A stretch of 64,000 nt of DNA, taken from Trichocoleus desertorum NBK24. GTDB taxonomy: Bacteria > Cyanobacteriota > Cyanobacteriia > FACHB-46. The first letter of the stretch is position 1. Each line of letters starts with the position of its first letter. This document shows positions 1,092 to 6,481 of the stretch, piece by piece. A program made the position numbers and the translations under genes. The stretch covers positions 3,511,628 to 3,575,627 of the forward strand of contig NZ_CP116619.1 in assembly GCF_030409055.1 (NCBI RefSeq), written 5' to 3'. Below the pieces are notes generated by a model. The model did not search any database and was not told where the DNA came from. It saw nothing but the letters and a program-made list of their open reading frames with translations.

Positions 1092-1391
1092 CTAAGCCGC
1101 ACAGCTCTGAAAAATTAACTGATGCCAAACTTGTTTGAGCACTCTAGCAATTAAGATTCGTTCTTCAATTGAGCAGTGGAACTGGTCAAGTAAAGGCGCA
1201 ACTTGACGTGCTTCCTCACTTGAGATGCCGTAACGAAGTAGCTCTTGCTCGTAGGCTTGGTCTTTCATCTCTTTAACTGGATCTCGTCCCTGAGCCAAAA
1301 GCTCTAGGTATTCCTCATCGGACATACCCAAGTCAATGATTTGCGGTTGATTGTTTGGTGAATGGTGCAGCACAGTTTGGCTCTTCAGCAT
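1092..1391 (-). CDS. Hypothetical 99-residue protein
   Basis: I do not recognise a family. The 99-residue product has an acidic central stretch (DLGMSDEEYLELL) and a predicted helical second half rich in E, L and R, with no signal peptide or membrane segment. It lies downstream of nadE on the same strand, 115 bases away, with a perfect 20-bp inverted repeat filling the gap. I considered an antitoxin-like role because of size and charge, but there is no partner toxin ORF next to it. The start ATG at 1391 is the only good one. It is a plausible real gene from its compact open frame and codon use, but function is unknown. Confidence 0.6.
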   Translation of the reverse strand: MLKSQTVLHHSPNNQPQIIDLGMSDEEYLELLAQGRDPVKEMKDQAYEQELLRYGISSEEARQVAPLLDQFHCSIEERILIARVLKQVWHQLIFQSCAA

Positions 1392-1414: not shown

Positions 1415-1462
1415 CAGGCTACTTAATTGAGCAGGTTAGTCACTGCTCAATTAAGTAGCCTG
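1415..1462. repeat. Perfect 20-bp inverted repeat with 8-nt loop
   Basis: The left arm CAGGCTACTTAATTGAGCAG (1415-1434) pairs base for base with the right arm at 1443-1462, leaving the loop GTTAGTCA. It lies between the nadE stop and the start of the 99-residue gene, both on the minus strand. No T-run follows on either strand, so it is not a textbook terminator. It could be an operator dyad, an mRNA-processing hairpin or a small palindromic repeat element. Confidence 0.9.
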
Positions 1463-1506: not shown

Positions 1507-3264
1507 TCAGATCTCAGACCTTAGGGGAGTACTAGCTGCAATCCAACGGCTAGCAATAGGCATACGCCATCCCGTACCAAAGGCGCGATCGGTAATTTTG
1601 ATGCCTGGAGGCGCTTGACGGCGCTTGAACTCAGACCGTGTGACCATTTTGACGACGCGATCGACCACGGCAGCATCATGCCCCGAAGCCACGATCGCAT
1701 CCGGGGGTTGGTGCTCATGAATAAAGCGATCGAGAATATCGTCGAGTATGTCGTAGGGTGGCAAAGAATCTTGGTCTACCTGTCCGGGCTTGAGTTCAGC
1801 ACTAGGAGGCTTGGTGAGGACGTGAGTAGGGACAACCTCAGCTTGGGGATTTTGAATTTTGGATTTTAGATTGGAGAACTGATGGGAGCCGCACGGGGAG
1901 TTGAGCCACTCACAAAGGGCATAAACGCAGGTTTTGGGTACATCGGCGATCGCGGCTAAGCCACCGTTCATGTCACCGTAGAGGGTGCAGTAGCCTACCG
2001 CCATCTCAGATTTGTTGCCCGTCGAGAGCAGCAAGTGACCAAACTTATTCGCGATCGCCATCAACAAGTTGCCCCGAATCCGGGATTGAATATTTTCTTC
2101 AGCGATTCCAGGAGCAGTGCCTGTAAATAAGTCGGTTAGAACTTGGTCGTAGTCCTGCATCAAGTTACCGATGGGCAGGGTATGAGTCTTGATCCCCAAG
2201 TTGTTGGCTAAATCCAGGGCATCGGTGATCGAGTGGTCGGAACTGTGGGGAGAGGGCATCAGCACGCCCAGGACATTTTCTGGTCCCAAAGCTTCGGCGG
2301 CGATCGCGGCTACCAAGGAGGAGTCAATGCCACCACTCATGCCCAGCACCACTTGAGAAAAGCCACACTTGCGGGCATAGTCCTGAACCCCTAGAACTAG
2401 AGCCGACCAAATTTCTGCGGTTTCGGAGCTTGGGTTAGAGGCGAGCGCCGCCGTAGGTGAATTCAGCGCTCTTAAATCCTGTTGTTTGGAGTCGTATTCC
2501 AGTAGCACCAAGTCAGTAGCAAAGGCTTTCGCTTGAGCAATCAGCTCTCCTTGCCGATTCAGCCCGAAGCTGTTGCCATCAAATATCAAGTCATCATTGC
2601 CGCCCACTTGATTGGCGTAAATAATTGGCTGCTGATAGCGAGTGGCACTATGGCGCAACATAGCAATGCGGGTTTGCTGCTTGCCAACGCTGTAAGGAGA
2701 AGCGGAAAGGTTGATGGTGAAGGCGACGCCTGCTTTAGCTAAGTCAGCGATCGGGTTGGTGGTGTAACTGCGCTTGCCCCAAAATTCCTCATCGTTCCAG
2801 AGGTCTTCGCAGATGGTGACGCCGACAGGCACAGAGTCGAGCTGAAAGTGATTGATTTGGCGACCTGGCGCGAAGTAGCGATCTTCGTCAAAGACATCGT
2901 AAGTAGGCAAGAGCCGCTTGTGAAAAATCTGCTGTACCTGTTGCCGCTCTAGAAGGGCAGTGCTGTTAAATAACGGTTTGCCGCCTTCTTCCAGCGATCG
3001 CTCATTTAACTCCACCGTTCCGACTAAAGCCGCTAGTCCGGCAGGTAAGTCCTGGGCCAACTGCTGCAATACTCGCTGCATCGCTTCAATAAAGCTGGGA
3101 TCGAGCAGCAGGTCGCGGGGTGGATAGCCGCACAAAGAGAGTTCTGGAGTCAGGAGTAAACGCGCCCCTTGAGCCGCTGCTTGTTGGGCTGCTGCCAGAA
3201 TTCGCTGAGCGTTCCCAGTCAAATCGCCAATGGTGGGATTAAGTTGAGCGATCGCAATTTTCAT
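1507..3264 (-). CDS. nadE: Glutamine-dependent NAD+ synthetase
   Basis: Catalyses the last step of NAD biosynthesis: amidation of deamido-NAD with ATP, using ammonia released from glutamine. The N-terminal nitrilase-type glutaminase domain (about 1-260) shows the expected triad E41, K116 and C152 (in ICEDLW). The C-terminal synthetase domain begins around residue 285, with the ATP-pyrophosphatase motif SGGIDSS at 310-316 and the downstream STGNKSE and KPPSAELKPGQ motifs. The 585 residues are slightly longer than usual because of roughly 18-20 extra residues after CEWLN (about 455-475). That insert contains a heptanucleotide repeat translated in frame. Start ATG at 3264 matches the family N-terminus (MKIAIAQLNPTIGD). 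Assignment is secure. Confidence 0.96.
   Translation of the reverse strand: MKIAIAQLNPTIGDLTGNAQRILAAAQQAAAQGARLLLTPELSLCGYPPRDLLLDPSFIEAMQRVLQQLAQDLPAGLAALVGTVELNERSLEEGGKPLFNSTALLERQQVQQIFHKRLLPTYDVFDEDRYFAPGRQINHFQLDSVPVGVTICEDLWNDEEFWGKRSYTTNPIADLAKAGVAFTINLSASPYSVGKQQTRIAMLRHSATRYQQPIIYANQVGGNDDLIFDGNSFGLNRQGELIAQAKAFATDLVLLEYDSKQQDLRALNSPTAALASNPSSETAEIWSALVLGVQDYARKCGFSQVVLGMSGGIDSSLVAAIAAEALGPENVLGVLMPSPHSSDHSITDALDLANNLGIKTHTLPIGNLMQDYDQVLTDLFTGTAPGIAEENIQSRIRGNLLMAIANKFGHLLLSTGNKSEMAVGYCTLYGDMNGGLAAIADVPKTCVYALCEWLNSPCGSHQFSNLKSKIQNPQAEVVPTHVLTKPPSAELKPGQVDQDSLPPYDILDDILDRFIHEHQPPDAIVASGHDAAVVDRVVKMVTRSEFKRRQAPPGIKITDRAFGTGWRMPIASRWIAASTPLRSEI
1849..1872. repeat. Heptanucleotide short tandem repeat inside nadE
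   Basis: Three consecutive heptamers read ATTTTGA, ATTTTGG, ATTTTAG, then a partial ATT. On the minus strand they are translated as NLKSKIQN (residues 465-472 of NadE). This A/T-rich heptamer type is common between genes in filamentous cyanobacteria; here it sits within an open frame without breaking it. Confidence 0.85.
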
Positions 3265-3952: not shown

Positions 3953-6481
3953 CTAAAGCAAGTTTAATGGATCGACATCGACGGTCATGCTGACGTTGGG
4001 TGGGCAGAGCGATCGCAGCTCATTCCAGTCGGGCAGTTCCACCGCTTGATCCAGCGGTAACTTGAGAAGAACTTGCCAACGATACCGCCGCGCGACTCGC
4101 AAGATACTGGCGGGAGCGGGACCCAACAATTCGTAGCCTGACTCCGCTTGTTGAGGCACCAGCACAGCGGCAATGCGTTTAGCAGTTTTCTGCACTGCTA
4201 ACGGATCAGGACTACTAAACTTCAGCAGCACGAGGCGATTGTGGGGTGGGAACCGCAGGGTTTGGCGTTGCAGTAACTCAGCGGCTACAAACGGCTCATA
4301 CTCGTGCCGTTGCACCGCTTCCACCACAAAATGTTCCGGCGAGTAAGTTTGAATAATCACTTGTCCCGGTTCATCCCCCCGCCCCGCTCGGCCTGCGACT
4401 TGAGTCAGCGTTTGAAAGGCCCGCTCACTAGCGCGGAAATCTGGCAGATGAAGCAACCCATCGGCTGCGATCACCCCAACCAGCGTCACTTGCGGCAGAT
4501 CAATTCCCTTGGTGAGCATCTGCGTACCCACCAACAAATCTGCGTCGCCTTGAGCAAACTGCGTTAATAAAGCTCGGTGCGATCCTTTGGTGCGGGTGGT
4601 ATCGCTATCAAACCGGAGGCAGCGCAAATCGGGCAGATGCTTCGCTAGTTCCTGGGTGACTCGTTGGGTGCCACTGCCAAAGAACTTTAGGTAAGGGGAG
4701 CCACACTCTGGGCATTGGGGCGGATGCAGAGTCGTGTGGTTGCAGTAATGACAACGCAGTAACTGAGTTGCCTCAGCATGAGTGTGATGGTAGGACAAGG
4801 AAACATCACAGTTGGGGCAATCTACCACGTAGCCGCAACTACGACAGGAAACAAAAGTGCTGTGTCCCCGGCGATGAATAAACAGAATGCCCTGCTGGCC
4901 TCGTTCTTGCAGCCGTTCTAGAGCCACCTGCAAAGCCCGACTGAAGATAGTGCGGTTCCCCTGCTGAAATTCCTGCCGCATATCCACCACTTCGATGGGT
5001 GGCAAAGGCCGCGATCGCACTCGACTAGGTAAAGCCAGATAATGCGATCCAGAGGAGTTAGCCTCTAGGCTGGCCTTGGCACTAACCCAGGTTTCGATCG
5101 CGGGTGTGGCAGAACCGAGAATCAAAGGACAATCGACTAACTCCGCTCGCCATTGCGCCACCGTGCGGGCATGGTAGCAGGGTGCAGGTTGGTCTTGCTT
5201 AAAACTGGAGTCGTGCTCCTCATCCAAAATAATCAGGCCAAGCTGAGGCAACGGCGCAAATACCGCCGATCGCGTCCCAATCACGACTTGTGGGCTACCG
5301 CTGAGCATTTGCCGCCAAGTGTCGTACCGCTCTCCCTCTGAGAGGGCACTGTGATACACACAAACCTTGCTGCCAAACCTAGCGCGAAAGCGATCAGTCA
5401 ATTGTGGGGTTAAGCCAATTTCTGGCACCAGCACCAGCGCTGACTGACCGCGTTGTAGGACGGGTGCGATCGCCTGTAAATATACCTCTGTCTTGCCAGA
5501 ACCCGTCACCCCATGCAACAAAACCTGAGCAAAGCCAGAGAGTGAAGTGATAGCCGCCAGGGCTTGAGCTTGATCGGGCGTGAGTTCTTTGGGTTGGTCA
5601 GGCGCGATCGCGACCCCTGCTTCGGCCCGCAAAATTTCACGCGGCTGAATGACAATGCAACCTTTTTTGGCTAGGGTTTGCACCGTACCCGAACTAGTCC
5701 GACAAAGTTGGAGCAGATCGCTGAGCCACAGATCTCCCCCTTCTCTCCGGAGGGTTTGAATGATTTCTTGTTGGCGTGGGCTCAGGCTTGCTTCTAGTTG
5801 GGTCGTAGCGACTAAAGTCACGGCTTGGCGTAGCTTGGGCTGCACTGCACTGGGAGGTTCCAAGTAGCTCTCTACCAAACCTTGTTTCAGCAGTTCTCTA
5901 AGTCCGCGAGCGGCCCCCGGAATCTTTTGTTGTAAGTACTGCCAAGTGTAACTACCTTGTTTTTGGGCTTGGAGCCTGCTTAAAACTTGTTGGGCAACTG
6001 GGCTTAATTCACTGAGATCAATTGGATCTAAACCTTTCAGCTCGATCAGGCGCACTCGTCGTTGCGATCGCCCCAACAAACCGGGGGGAAGTGCTACCCG
6101 AATCACCGCCATCAGGGAGGTGCAGTAGTATTCAGCCACTTGATTGAGCAAGGTCCAATAGGTAGCGGGAAAGAACCCAGTGCTGACGACCTCTTCTATC
6201 TCTCTAACCTGCGTCAGAGGTAAGTCTGGGGGAAGCTGAGCTAAAAGGTGAATTGCGATCGCTCCCACCTGCTGCGCCCCGAATGGCACCGTCAAGACAT
6301 CCCCTGGCTGTACCGTTAACCCAGGCGGCAAAGCATAGGTAAACAGCCCTTGGGCTCCAGGGCAATCTACTAAAACCTCCACCCAAGACTGTGTAGTAGG
6401 GCCACAAGAGTAGCTAATTCCAGACTCAGCCAATACTGGAGTCGCAAGACCAAGACCGGAATCAGACATACCAAAACGCAT
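3953..6481 (-). CDS. priA: Primosomal protein N' (replication restart helicase PriA)
   Basis: PriA recognises stalled forks and reloads the replicative helicase. The 842-residue product has an N-terminal 3'-end-binding region, then a superfamily 2 helicase core with Walker A GVTGSGKT at 324-331 and the DEEH box at 420-423. The zinc-binding insert carries eight cysteines in pairs (546/549, 555/558, 577/580, 590/593), enough for the two zinc sites of the family. The motif QMLTKGIDLPQVTLVG and the QVAGRAGRG motif VI are intact. Start ATG at 6481 gives about 30 residues before the conserved WVEVLVD; a later in-frame ATG (residue 5) is possible. Monocistronic by context. Confidence 0.97.
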   Translation of the reverse strand: MRFGMSDSGLGLATPVLAESGISYSCGPTTQSWVEVLVDCPGAQGLFTYALPPGLTVQPGDVLTVPFGAQQVGAIAIHLLAQLPPDLPLTQVREIEEVVSTGFFPATYWTLLNQVAEYYCTSLMAVIRVALPPGLLGRSQRRVRLIELKGLDPIDLSELSPVAQQVLSRLQAQKQGSYTWQYLQQKIPGAARGLRELLKQGLVESYLEPPSAVQPKLRQAVTLVATTQLEASLSPRQQEIIQTLRREGGDLWLSDLLQLCRTSSGTVQTLAKKGCIVIQPREILRAEAGVAIAPDQPKELTPDQAQALAAITSLSGFAQVLLHGVTGSGKTEVYLQAIAPVLQRGQSALVLVPEIGLTPQLTDRFRARFGSKVCVYHSALSEGERYDTWRQMLSGSPQVVIGTRSAVFAPLPQLGLIILDEEHDSSFKQDQPAPCYHARTVAQWRAELVDCPLILGSATPAIETWVSAKASLEANSSGSHYLALPSRVRSRPLPPIEVVDMRQEFQQGNRTIFSRALQVALERLQERGQQGILFIHRRGHSTFVSCRSCGYVVDCPNCDVSLSYHHTHAEATQLLRCHYCNHTTLHPPQCPECGSPYLKFFGSGTQRVTQELAKHLPDLRCLRFDSDTTRTKGSHRALLTQFAQGDADLLVGTQMLTKGIDLPQVTLVGVIAADGLLHLPDFRASERAFQTLTQVAGRAGRGDEPGQVIIQTYSPEHFVVEAVQRHEYEPFVAAELLQRQTLRFPPHNRLVLLKFSSPDPLAVQKTAKRIAAVLVPQQAESGYELLGPAPASILRVARRYRWQVLLKLPLDQAVELPDWNELRSLCPPNVSMTVDVDPLNLL

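Follow-up and report, generated by a model that had tools for sequence, protein, structure and literature searches.

A perfect 20-bp inverted repeat between nadE and a 99-residue gene of Trichocoleus desertorum NBK24 as a candidate U-less 3'-end hairpin

The nadE locus and its intergenic hairpin

The window, i.e. the whole analysed stretch of 64,000 nt, carries two neighbouring genes on the minus strand with a hairpin in the gap between them, which agrees with the placement given in the preliminary description. The upstream gene is nadE (1507-3264, minus strand), encoding an NAD+ synthase of 585 amino acids (NCBIfam NF010588; Pfam NAD_synthase). The downstream gene (1092-1391, minus strand) was found as an ORF and would encode a protein of 99 amino acids belonging to no named family. 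The hairpin is located 44 nt past the nadE stop codon and 23 nt ahead of the start codon of the 99-aa gene. On the plus strand, an ORF which we take to be glmU ends at position 1048. The window contains GCGATCGC-rich sequence, which we regard as a cyanobacterial mark, and a cyanobacterium is likewise indicated by those homologs of the 99-aa protein that carry a name.

For the 99-aa product, Pfam matches were below the cut-off only and no NCBIfam match was obtained. Judged by its conservation, the gene looks real, since the homolog in the congener G002 is 91% identical and matches were found in 12 of 242 genomes, the host and G002 among them. Two of these 12 matches (G094 and G038) contain internal stop codons.

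The window was searched for inverted repeats, and ten pairs of length ≥ 14 at a distance ≤ 60 were obtained. The pair 1415-1434/1443-1462 is the only perfect one, the remaining nine being 76-93% complementary. Its left arm (1415-1434) and right arm (1443-1462) form 20 of 20 possible pairs around a loop of 8 nt (1435-1442), so that arms and loop were found exactly as previously claimed; nine of the 20 arm bases are G or C. Two short outer stems lengthen the fold, namely 1409-1412 with 1469-1472 and ACTCT at 1403-1407 with AGAGT at 1480-1484; both sides of both stems are the same in G002. The energy of the region 1395-1482 is -38.0 kcal/mol, compared to a mean of -17.0 for shuffled sequences (z = -7.05; 0/200 shuffles as good). 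On the nadE-sense strand, -43.7 kcal/mol was calculated for a 90-nt fold (z = -7.25; 0/200 shuffles as good) and -35.0 kcal/mol for a 56-nt fold (z = -9.89). Under a uniform base model, perfect 20-bp arms with a loop of 3-20 nt are expected about 1e-6 times per 64 kb and 9e-5 times per 5.46 Mb. The hairpin is far beyond chance.

On the nadE-sense strand, the 10 nt that follow the stem include three T, and the region 900-1700 contains no terminator-like site. The absence of a T-run reported earlier was thus borne out, and a canonical intrinsic (L-shaped) terminator with a U-tract right after the stem was not found. An Rfam covariance-model search of 900-1800 (E ≤ 5) gave no match.

Copy number and comparison with a congener

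The host genome consists of a single contig of 5.46 Mb. When 88 nt containing the hairpin were used as the query against it, only the hairpin itself was recovered, the runners-up being 22 nt with 86% identity and 14 nt; being a single copy, the hairpin is not dispersed. Among the three genomes of the genus that were compared, a DNA search detected the site in the host and G002 only. In G001, neither the hairpin site nor the 99-aa gene was matched. A 17-bp match in G001 lies within an ORF and has no partner arm; it was taken as chance and rejected. When a stretch of 540 bp was searched against 30 genomes (E ≤ 1), 28 matched somewhere, mostly at the nadE end, and a strong alignment through the hairpin was obtained for the host and G002 only, with G017 matching weakly in the inner arms (E = 0.48). 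This G017 match (L055, ~2517-2543) is itself a hairpin with the arms ATTGAGCAG/CTGCTCAAT, which match the window repeat in its inner arms, and sits at the start of what we presume to be a regulator-like ORF; it is probably due to chance. A scan of genome contigs with the 99-aa alignment gave seven loci of 42-61% identity, none of which is usable as an outgroup for the hairpin.

A mobile palindromic element had been among the roles proposed earlier, and a short palindrome in an intergenic gap would suit a mobile or dispersed element of the REP or MITE type. Such elements occur in several copies, whereas this one has a single copy in its own genome and, in the two congeners compared, was found solely at the orthologous site of one. 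By sequence, this explanation appears largely refuted already, and we consider it hardly credible. The objection that identical copies might reveal a mere dispersed repeat falls with it, as the genome and congener searches gave one host copy and a degenerate ortholog in G002.

The G002 site, the only ortholog found, occupies the corresponding position, with nadE on one side and the 99-aa gene on the other. Comparison of both genomes delineates a conserved stretch from the start of the 99-aa gene to the last nadE codons (1392-1520, of which 1507-1520 is nadE coding sequence in the host), with the hairpin inside. In G002, 5 nt of the left arm are missing, while the right arm carries GT instead of C and an altered last base, amounting to two substitutions and one extra base; the stem is imperfect. 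Its 56-nt fold reaches -15.3 kcal/mol, compared to -35.0 in the host, with a shorter, interrupted stem (4/200 shuffles as good). An 89-nt G002 stretch, which was truncated one base inside the outer stem, gave z = -1.71 (11/200 shuffles as good), and an 88-nt stretch shifted slightly gave -28.7. The stem of G002 being so much weaker, a strong stem would seem unnecessary in that genome.

The neutral level was taken from fourfold sites differing between the host and G002, which number 67 of 275 for nadE, 8 of 32 for the 99-aa gene and 96 of 438 for the ORF 3953-6481. In the hairpin flanks (1392-1414 and 1463-1520), 5 of 81 aligned sites differ (p = 1.7e-5 against the neutral level), and in the aligned arm bases 2 of 35 (p = 0.004), whereas the loop, with 3 of 8 bases changed, is not under the neutral level. 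By these counts, the hairpin stretch is under constraint, the arms more so than the loop. The region upstream of nadE is equally conserved (10 of 163 sites differ); hence, the flanks might instead be constrained as a promoter or 5' UTR belonging to the 99-aa gene. Indels within the arms of G002 argue against a strict constraint on pairing. Selection or a very recent origin had been put forward to account for the perfection of the repeat, and about half of this holds: the site is older than the split from G002, while the exact pairing is confined to the host, which may reflect either decay in G002 or correction in the host lineage.

Two further differences were observed beside the hairpin. At the 3' end of nadE (window 1507-1540 compared to 5440-5610 of G002 L054), 101 nt of G002 are missing in the host. 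Consequently, the last NadE residues differ, and the distance from the stop codon to the hairpin is 44 nt in the host and ~121 nt in G002. Next to the nadE stop codon (1503-1506), the host has GTGC and G002 has GCAC, which is either a 4-base inversion or merely two substitutions.

The proximity to the 99-aa gene allows two readings in which the hairpin would serve that gene. As an element of its 5' untranslated region, the hairpin would limit access of the ribosome or protect the 5' end of the mRNA. The distance to the ATG, which is 23 nt or, counting the outer stems, 11 nt, and the conservation of both hairpin flanks are consistent with such a role. As a palindromic operator, it would be bound by a transcription factor that controls the 99-aa gene, and the perfect dyad within a conserved intergenic stretch could be cited in favour of this. 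Evidence on both came from the homologs of the 99-aa gene. Of 19 loci, 18 were scanned (L045 was left out) and eight, including those of the host and G002, could be scored by a conserved motif, while ten of the 18 remained unscored. In none of the six scored loci outside the genus was a comparable hairpin present up to ~290 nt upstream of the motif: L039 has two perfect 8-bp hairpins ~300 nt upstream, and the other five have none (arm ≥ 8, 350 nt). As the protein ends of L036 and L046 do not differ and both loci may stem from a single organism, the six loci may be five. In addition, no promoter-like site was found on the minus strand in 900-1700, and one was found on the plus strand. A 5'-UTR function is thus improbable. 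The operator, which had been proposed explicitly for the 99-residue gene, fares worse. One arm is 5 bp short in G002, the only ortholog, so that half-sites and spacing are not conserved; the sequence is a single copy in the genome; and hairpins of this class, described below, are sparse in divergent gaps. Operators are usually shorter than 20-bp arms with an 8-bp spacer. Together with the missing hairpins at the outside-genus loci, this makes an operator very improbable.

Perfect hairpins across the host genome

For a genome-wide view, 1.94 Mb of the host genome were sampled (77 separate 20-kb stretches and one piece of 400 kb; 36% of the genome). Perfect hairpins with a loop of 3-20 nt numbered 17 with arms ≥ 14 and 15 with arms ≥ 15; none with arms ≥ 15 occurred in a single 864-kb shuffle generated by a first-order Markov model. 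Their sequences are unrelated, with no common motif by eye. Extrapolated to the whole genome, these numbers suggest that perfect hairpins, each of unique sequence, amount to several dozen. Two sampled hairpins of the host (G000) have the longest arms, of 25 bp; they are located at C1:2972229 (L080:2229-2285) and C1:5196133 (L182), the former 68 nt from an ORF which is presumably transposase-like.

The location relative to genes was analyzed for perfect hairpins with arms ≥ 10 and loops of 3-20 nt, using gene ends from simple ORF calling (ORFs ≥ 99 aa). Edge hairpins lacking a gene on at least one side were excluded (three at arm ≥ 10 in one run), and the window hairpin was classed as tandem. 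Convergent gaps contained 25 hairpins in 34.9 kb, tandem gaps 32 in 166 kb and divergent gaps 10 in 80.9 kb, compared to means of 0.2, 3.6 and 0.8, respectively, in shuffled gaps. Hairpins are nearly six times denser in convergent than in divergent gaps (p = 6e-7). With the ORF limit set to 80, 100 or 130 aa, this excess kept its direction and rough size. On the G002 contig C2, the same direction was obtained with eight convergent hairpins versus one divergent (p = 5e-4). Half of the host hairpins (33 of 67) are U-less, defined as ≤ 3 T in the 10 nt past the stem, distributed as 11 of 25 in convergent, 18 of 32 in tandem and 4 of 10 in divergent gaps; for this subset as well, convergent exceeds divergent (11 versus 4, p = 7e-4), while the corresponding numbers for G002 (2 versus 0, p = 0.09) are too few. 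The class is mixed with respect to its U-tracts, and part of the convergent excess would therefore represent ordinary terminators. In hairpin density, tandem gaps do not significantly exceed divergent ones (p = 0.26, window hairpin taken out). As the gap with the window hairpin is a tandem one, the class supports a 3'-end role for it by analogy only.

Hairpins were also sought past nadE itself. The 3' flanks of nadE were collected from 21 loci, one of which (L022) was left unscored. A perfect hairpin (arm ≥ 11) is present within 300 nt past nadE in 5 of the 20 scored loci including the host, and in 4 of 17 loci outside the genus, where the hairpin sequences are unrelated. In the nadE 3' flanks of the congeners, no perfect arm ≥ 7 was found in G002 and none was found in G001. 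The locus L021 (G025) has three perfect hairpins (arms of 15, 14 and 12) within 300 nt past nadE, with CTCAAAA-like cores in common.

Perfect stems could also arise without any function, when template switching between imperfect inverted repeats makes or corrects the arms and the resulting hairpin simply persists in the gap. Template switching is known to perfect inverted repeats (PMC8794818, PMC8604942). The mismatched arms at the orthologous G002 site would suit this process, and 3 or 4 of the 17 perfect hairpins with arms ≥ 14, depending on which of two ORF rules is applied, lie in coding DNA. A second locus in the host (C1:3585799-3585843; L137:5799-5843) is similar: here, perfect 14-bp arms lie inside an ORF and are imperfect in both G002 and G001. 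The host departs from G002 at three arm positions, and each time its base closes a pair. G001 shares the base of G002 at two of these positions, which makes the change host-specific by parsimony, and at the remaining one each genome has a different base; as the two congeners stand equally far from the host at this locus (83%), the parsimony is among three genomes with no rooted outgroup. Since the locus was chosen for its perfection, it is biased. In the 400-kb comparison, two of the five host hairpins with arms ≥ 14 have a syntenic match in G002, and both are perfect in the host only; of the other three, one has a 78% match elsewhere and two have no match. The window site resembles stems repaired by template switching in having exact arms in the host, mismatched arms in the ortholog and a similar second case in the genome. 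It differs in that both arms deviate from G002, so that more than one template-switch event would be needed, and the comparison of host and G002 alone does not polarise the direction of change. Furthermore, mutation alone would not lead one to expect the conservation of flanks and arms or the excess at convergent ends. A purely mutational origin is regarded as unlikely, though as the most probable of the rival readings.

A putative 3'-end or intercistronic RNA hairpin

The hairpin is ordinary in kind and is best placed with U-less 3'-end hairpins. Our preferred reading, by analogy with such structures, is that of a U-less 3'-end or intercistronic RNA hairpin of a putative transcript running from nadE to the 99-aa gene, for which we estimate a probability of slightly below one half (about 0.48). 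It corresponds to the RNA-processing signal proposed in the preliminary description and is the best supported of the three roles named there because perfect hairpins concentrate at convergent gene ends and because arms and flanks are conserved; the gap in question is tandem, and the support is by analogy. The stability of the fold, the unrelated hairpins past nadE in other genera and the RNase III-domain matches of the host likewise favour it, and the much weaker stem of G002 counts against it.

The closest known structures are the I-shaped (U-less) terminators described with WebGeSTer for Synechococcus PCC 7002 and by Term-seq for Synechocystis PCC 7338. Like these, the window hairpin is a stem-loop shortly past a stop codon, with a loop of 8 nt, strong folding energy and fewer than four T past the stem. 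Its loop, its distance from the ORF end and its -35.0 kcal/mol are within the limits given in PMC7406221 (loop 3-8, ≤ 270 nt from the ORF end, strong energy), and its 3 T in 10 nt within the rule of fewer than four uridines near the end given in PMC8155712. In contrast, the stem of 20 bp exceeds the 12-bp limit of the PCC 7002 study (PMC7406221). Membership in a known terminator class had been named as an argument against a special role, and it applies weakly: the U-less (I-shaped) class fits by sequence, the canonical class with its U-tract does not.

A second comparison concerns the REP elements, which stabilise mRNA 3' ends in Escherichia coli (PMC13289151). As a U-less hairpin at a gene end, the window structure could likewise stall exonucleases; REP elements, however, are dispersed and have a consensus, and the window hairpin is one copy.

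Thirdly, RNase III substrates have a size of about two helical turns of duplex. The window hairpin would supply approximately this length of perfect duplex between two same-strand genes, and RNase III-domain genes are present in the host, with three matches above the cut-off. The duplex is interrupted in G002, and the substrate in the window is putative. A perfect 12-bp hairpin was observed at host C1:4668912 (L178), located upstream of one RNase III-domain match (4668364-4668651, minus strand) at a distance of 261 nt, and is possibly a self-regulation stem of this gene. One to three genes for RNase III, together with a Mini-III, are usual in cyanobacteria (PMC10989914).

Under the 3'-end reading, minus-strand RNA would carry the stem-loop in the 3' untranslated region of nadE, just ahead of the 99-aa gene, and the hairpin would act via its structure rather than its sequence. 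The 20-bp duplex without a U-tract may block 3'-to-5' exonucleases, or RNase III may cut the duplex. Either event would set the 3' end of the nadE mRNA and separate nadE from the 99-aa gene. The hairpin may also pause RNA polymerase or terminate it in part. In addition to selection for a stem, template switching may have corrected one arm against the other and thereby made the pairing exact.

Published data on U-less ends in cyanobacteria vary. In Synechococcus elongatus, U-less 3' ends were assigned to 163 transcription units, 75 of which have a strong upstream structure; 54% of the U-less ends are without strong structure, and stabilising hairpins are called largely absent (PMC13289151). For Synechocystis PCC 7338, I-shaped ends were mapped by Term-seq and read-through at them was apparently uncommon (PMC8155712). 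In PCC 7002, I-shaped ends were associated with shorter half-lives than U-tract ends (PMC7406221).

The single hairpin alone changes little, and its link to 3'-end formation without Rho is modest. The genome-wide pattern is more interesting than the single hairpin. Cyanobacteria are without Rho, and canonical intrinsic terminators explain only 22% of the transcription units of S. elongatus in a 2026 study (PMC13289151). A wider proposal would be that perfect 3'-end hairpins of unique sequence, about half of them U-less, set transcript ends in the Rho-less host, while template switching re-perfects their stems; in this general form, we consider it rather unlikely. If it were true, U-less hairpins would belong to the non-canonical ways, so far unexplained, in which the phylum forms its 3' ends. 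The hairpins preferring gene ends, about half of them U-less, offer concrete sites at which to ask whether a U-less structure sets transcript ends, and the same set would be a testbed for template switching as a process which keeps stems perfect.
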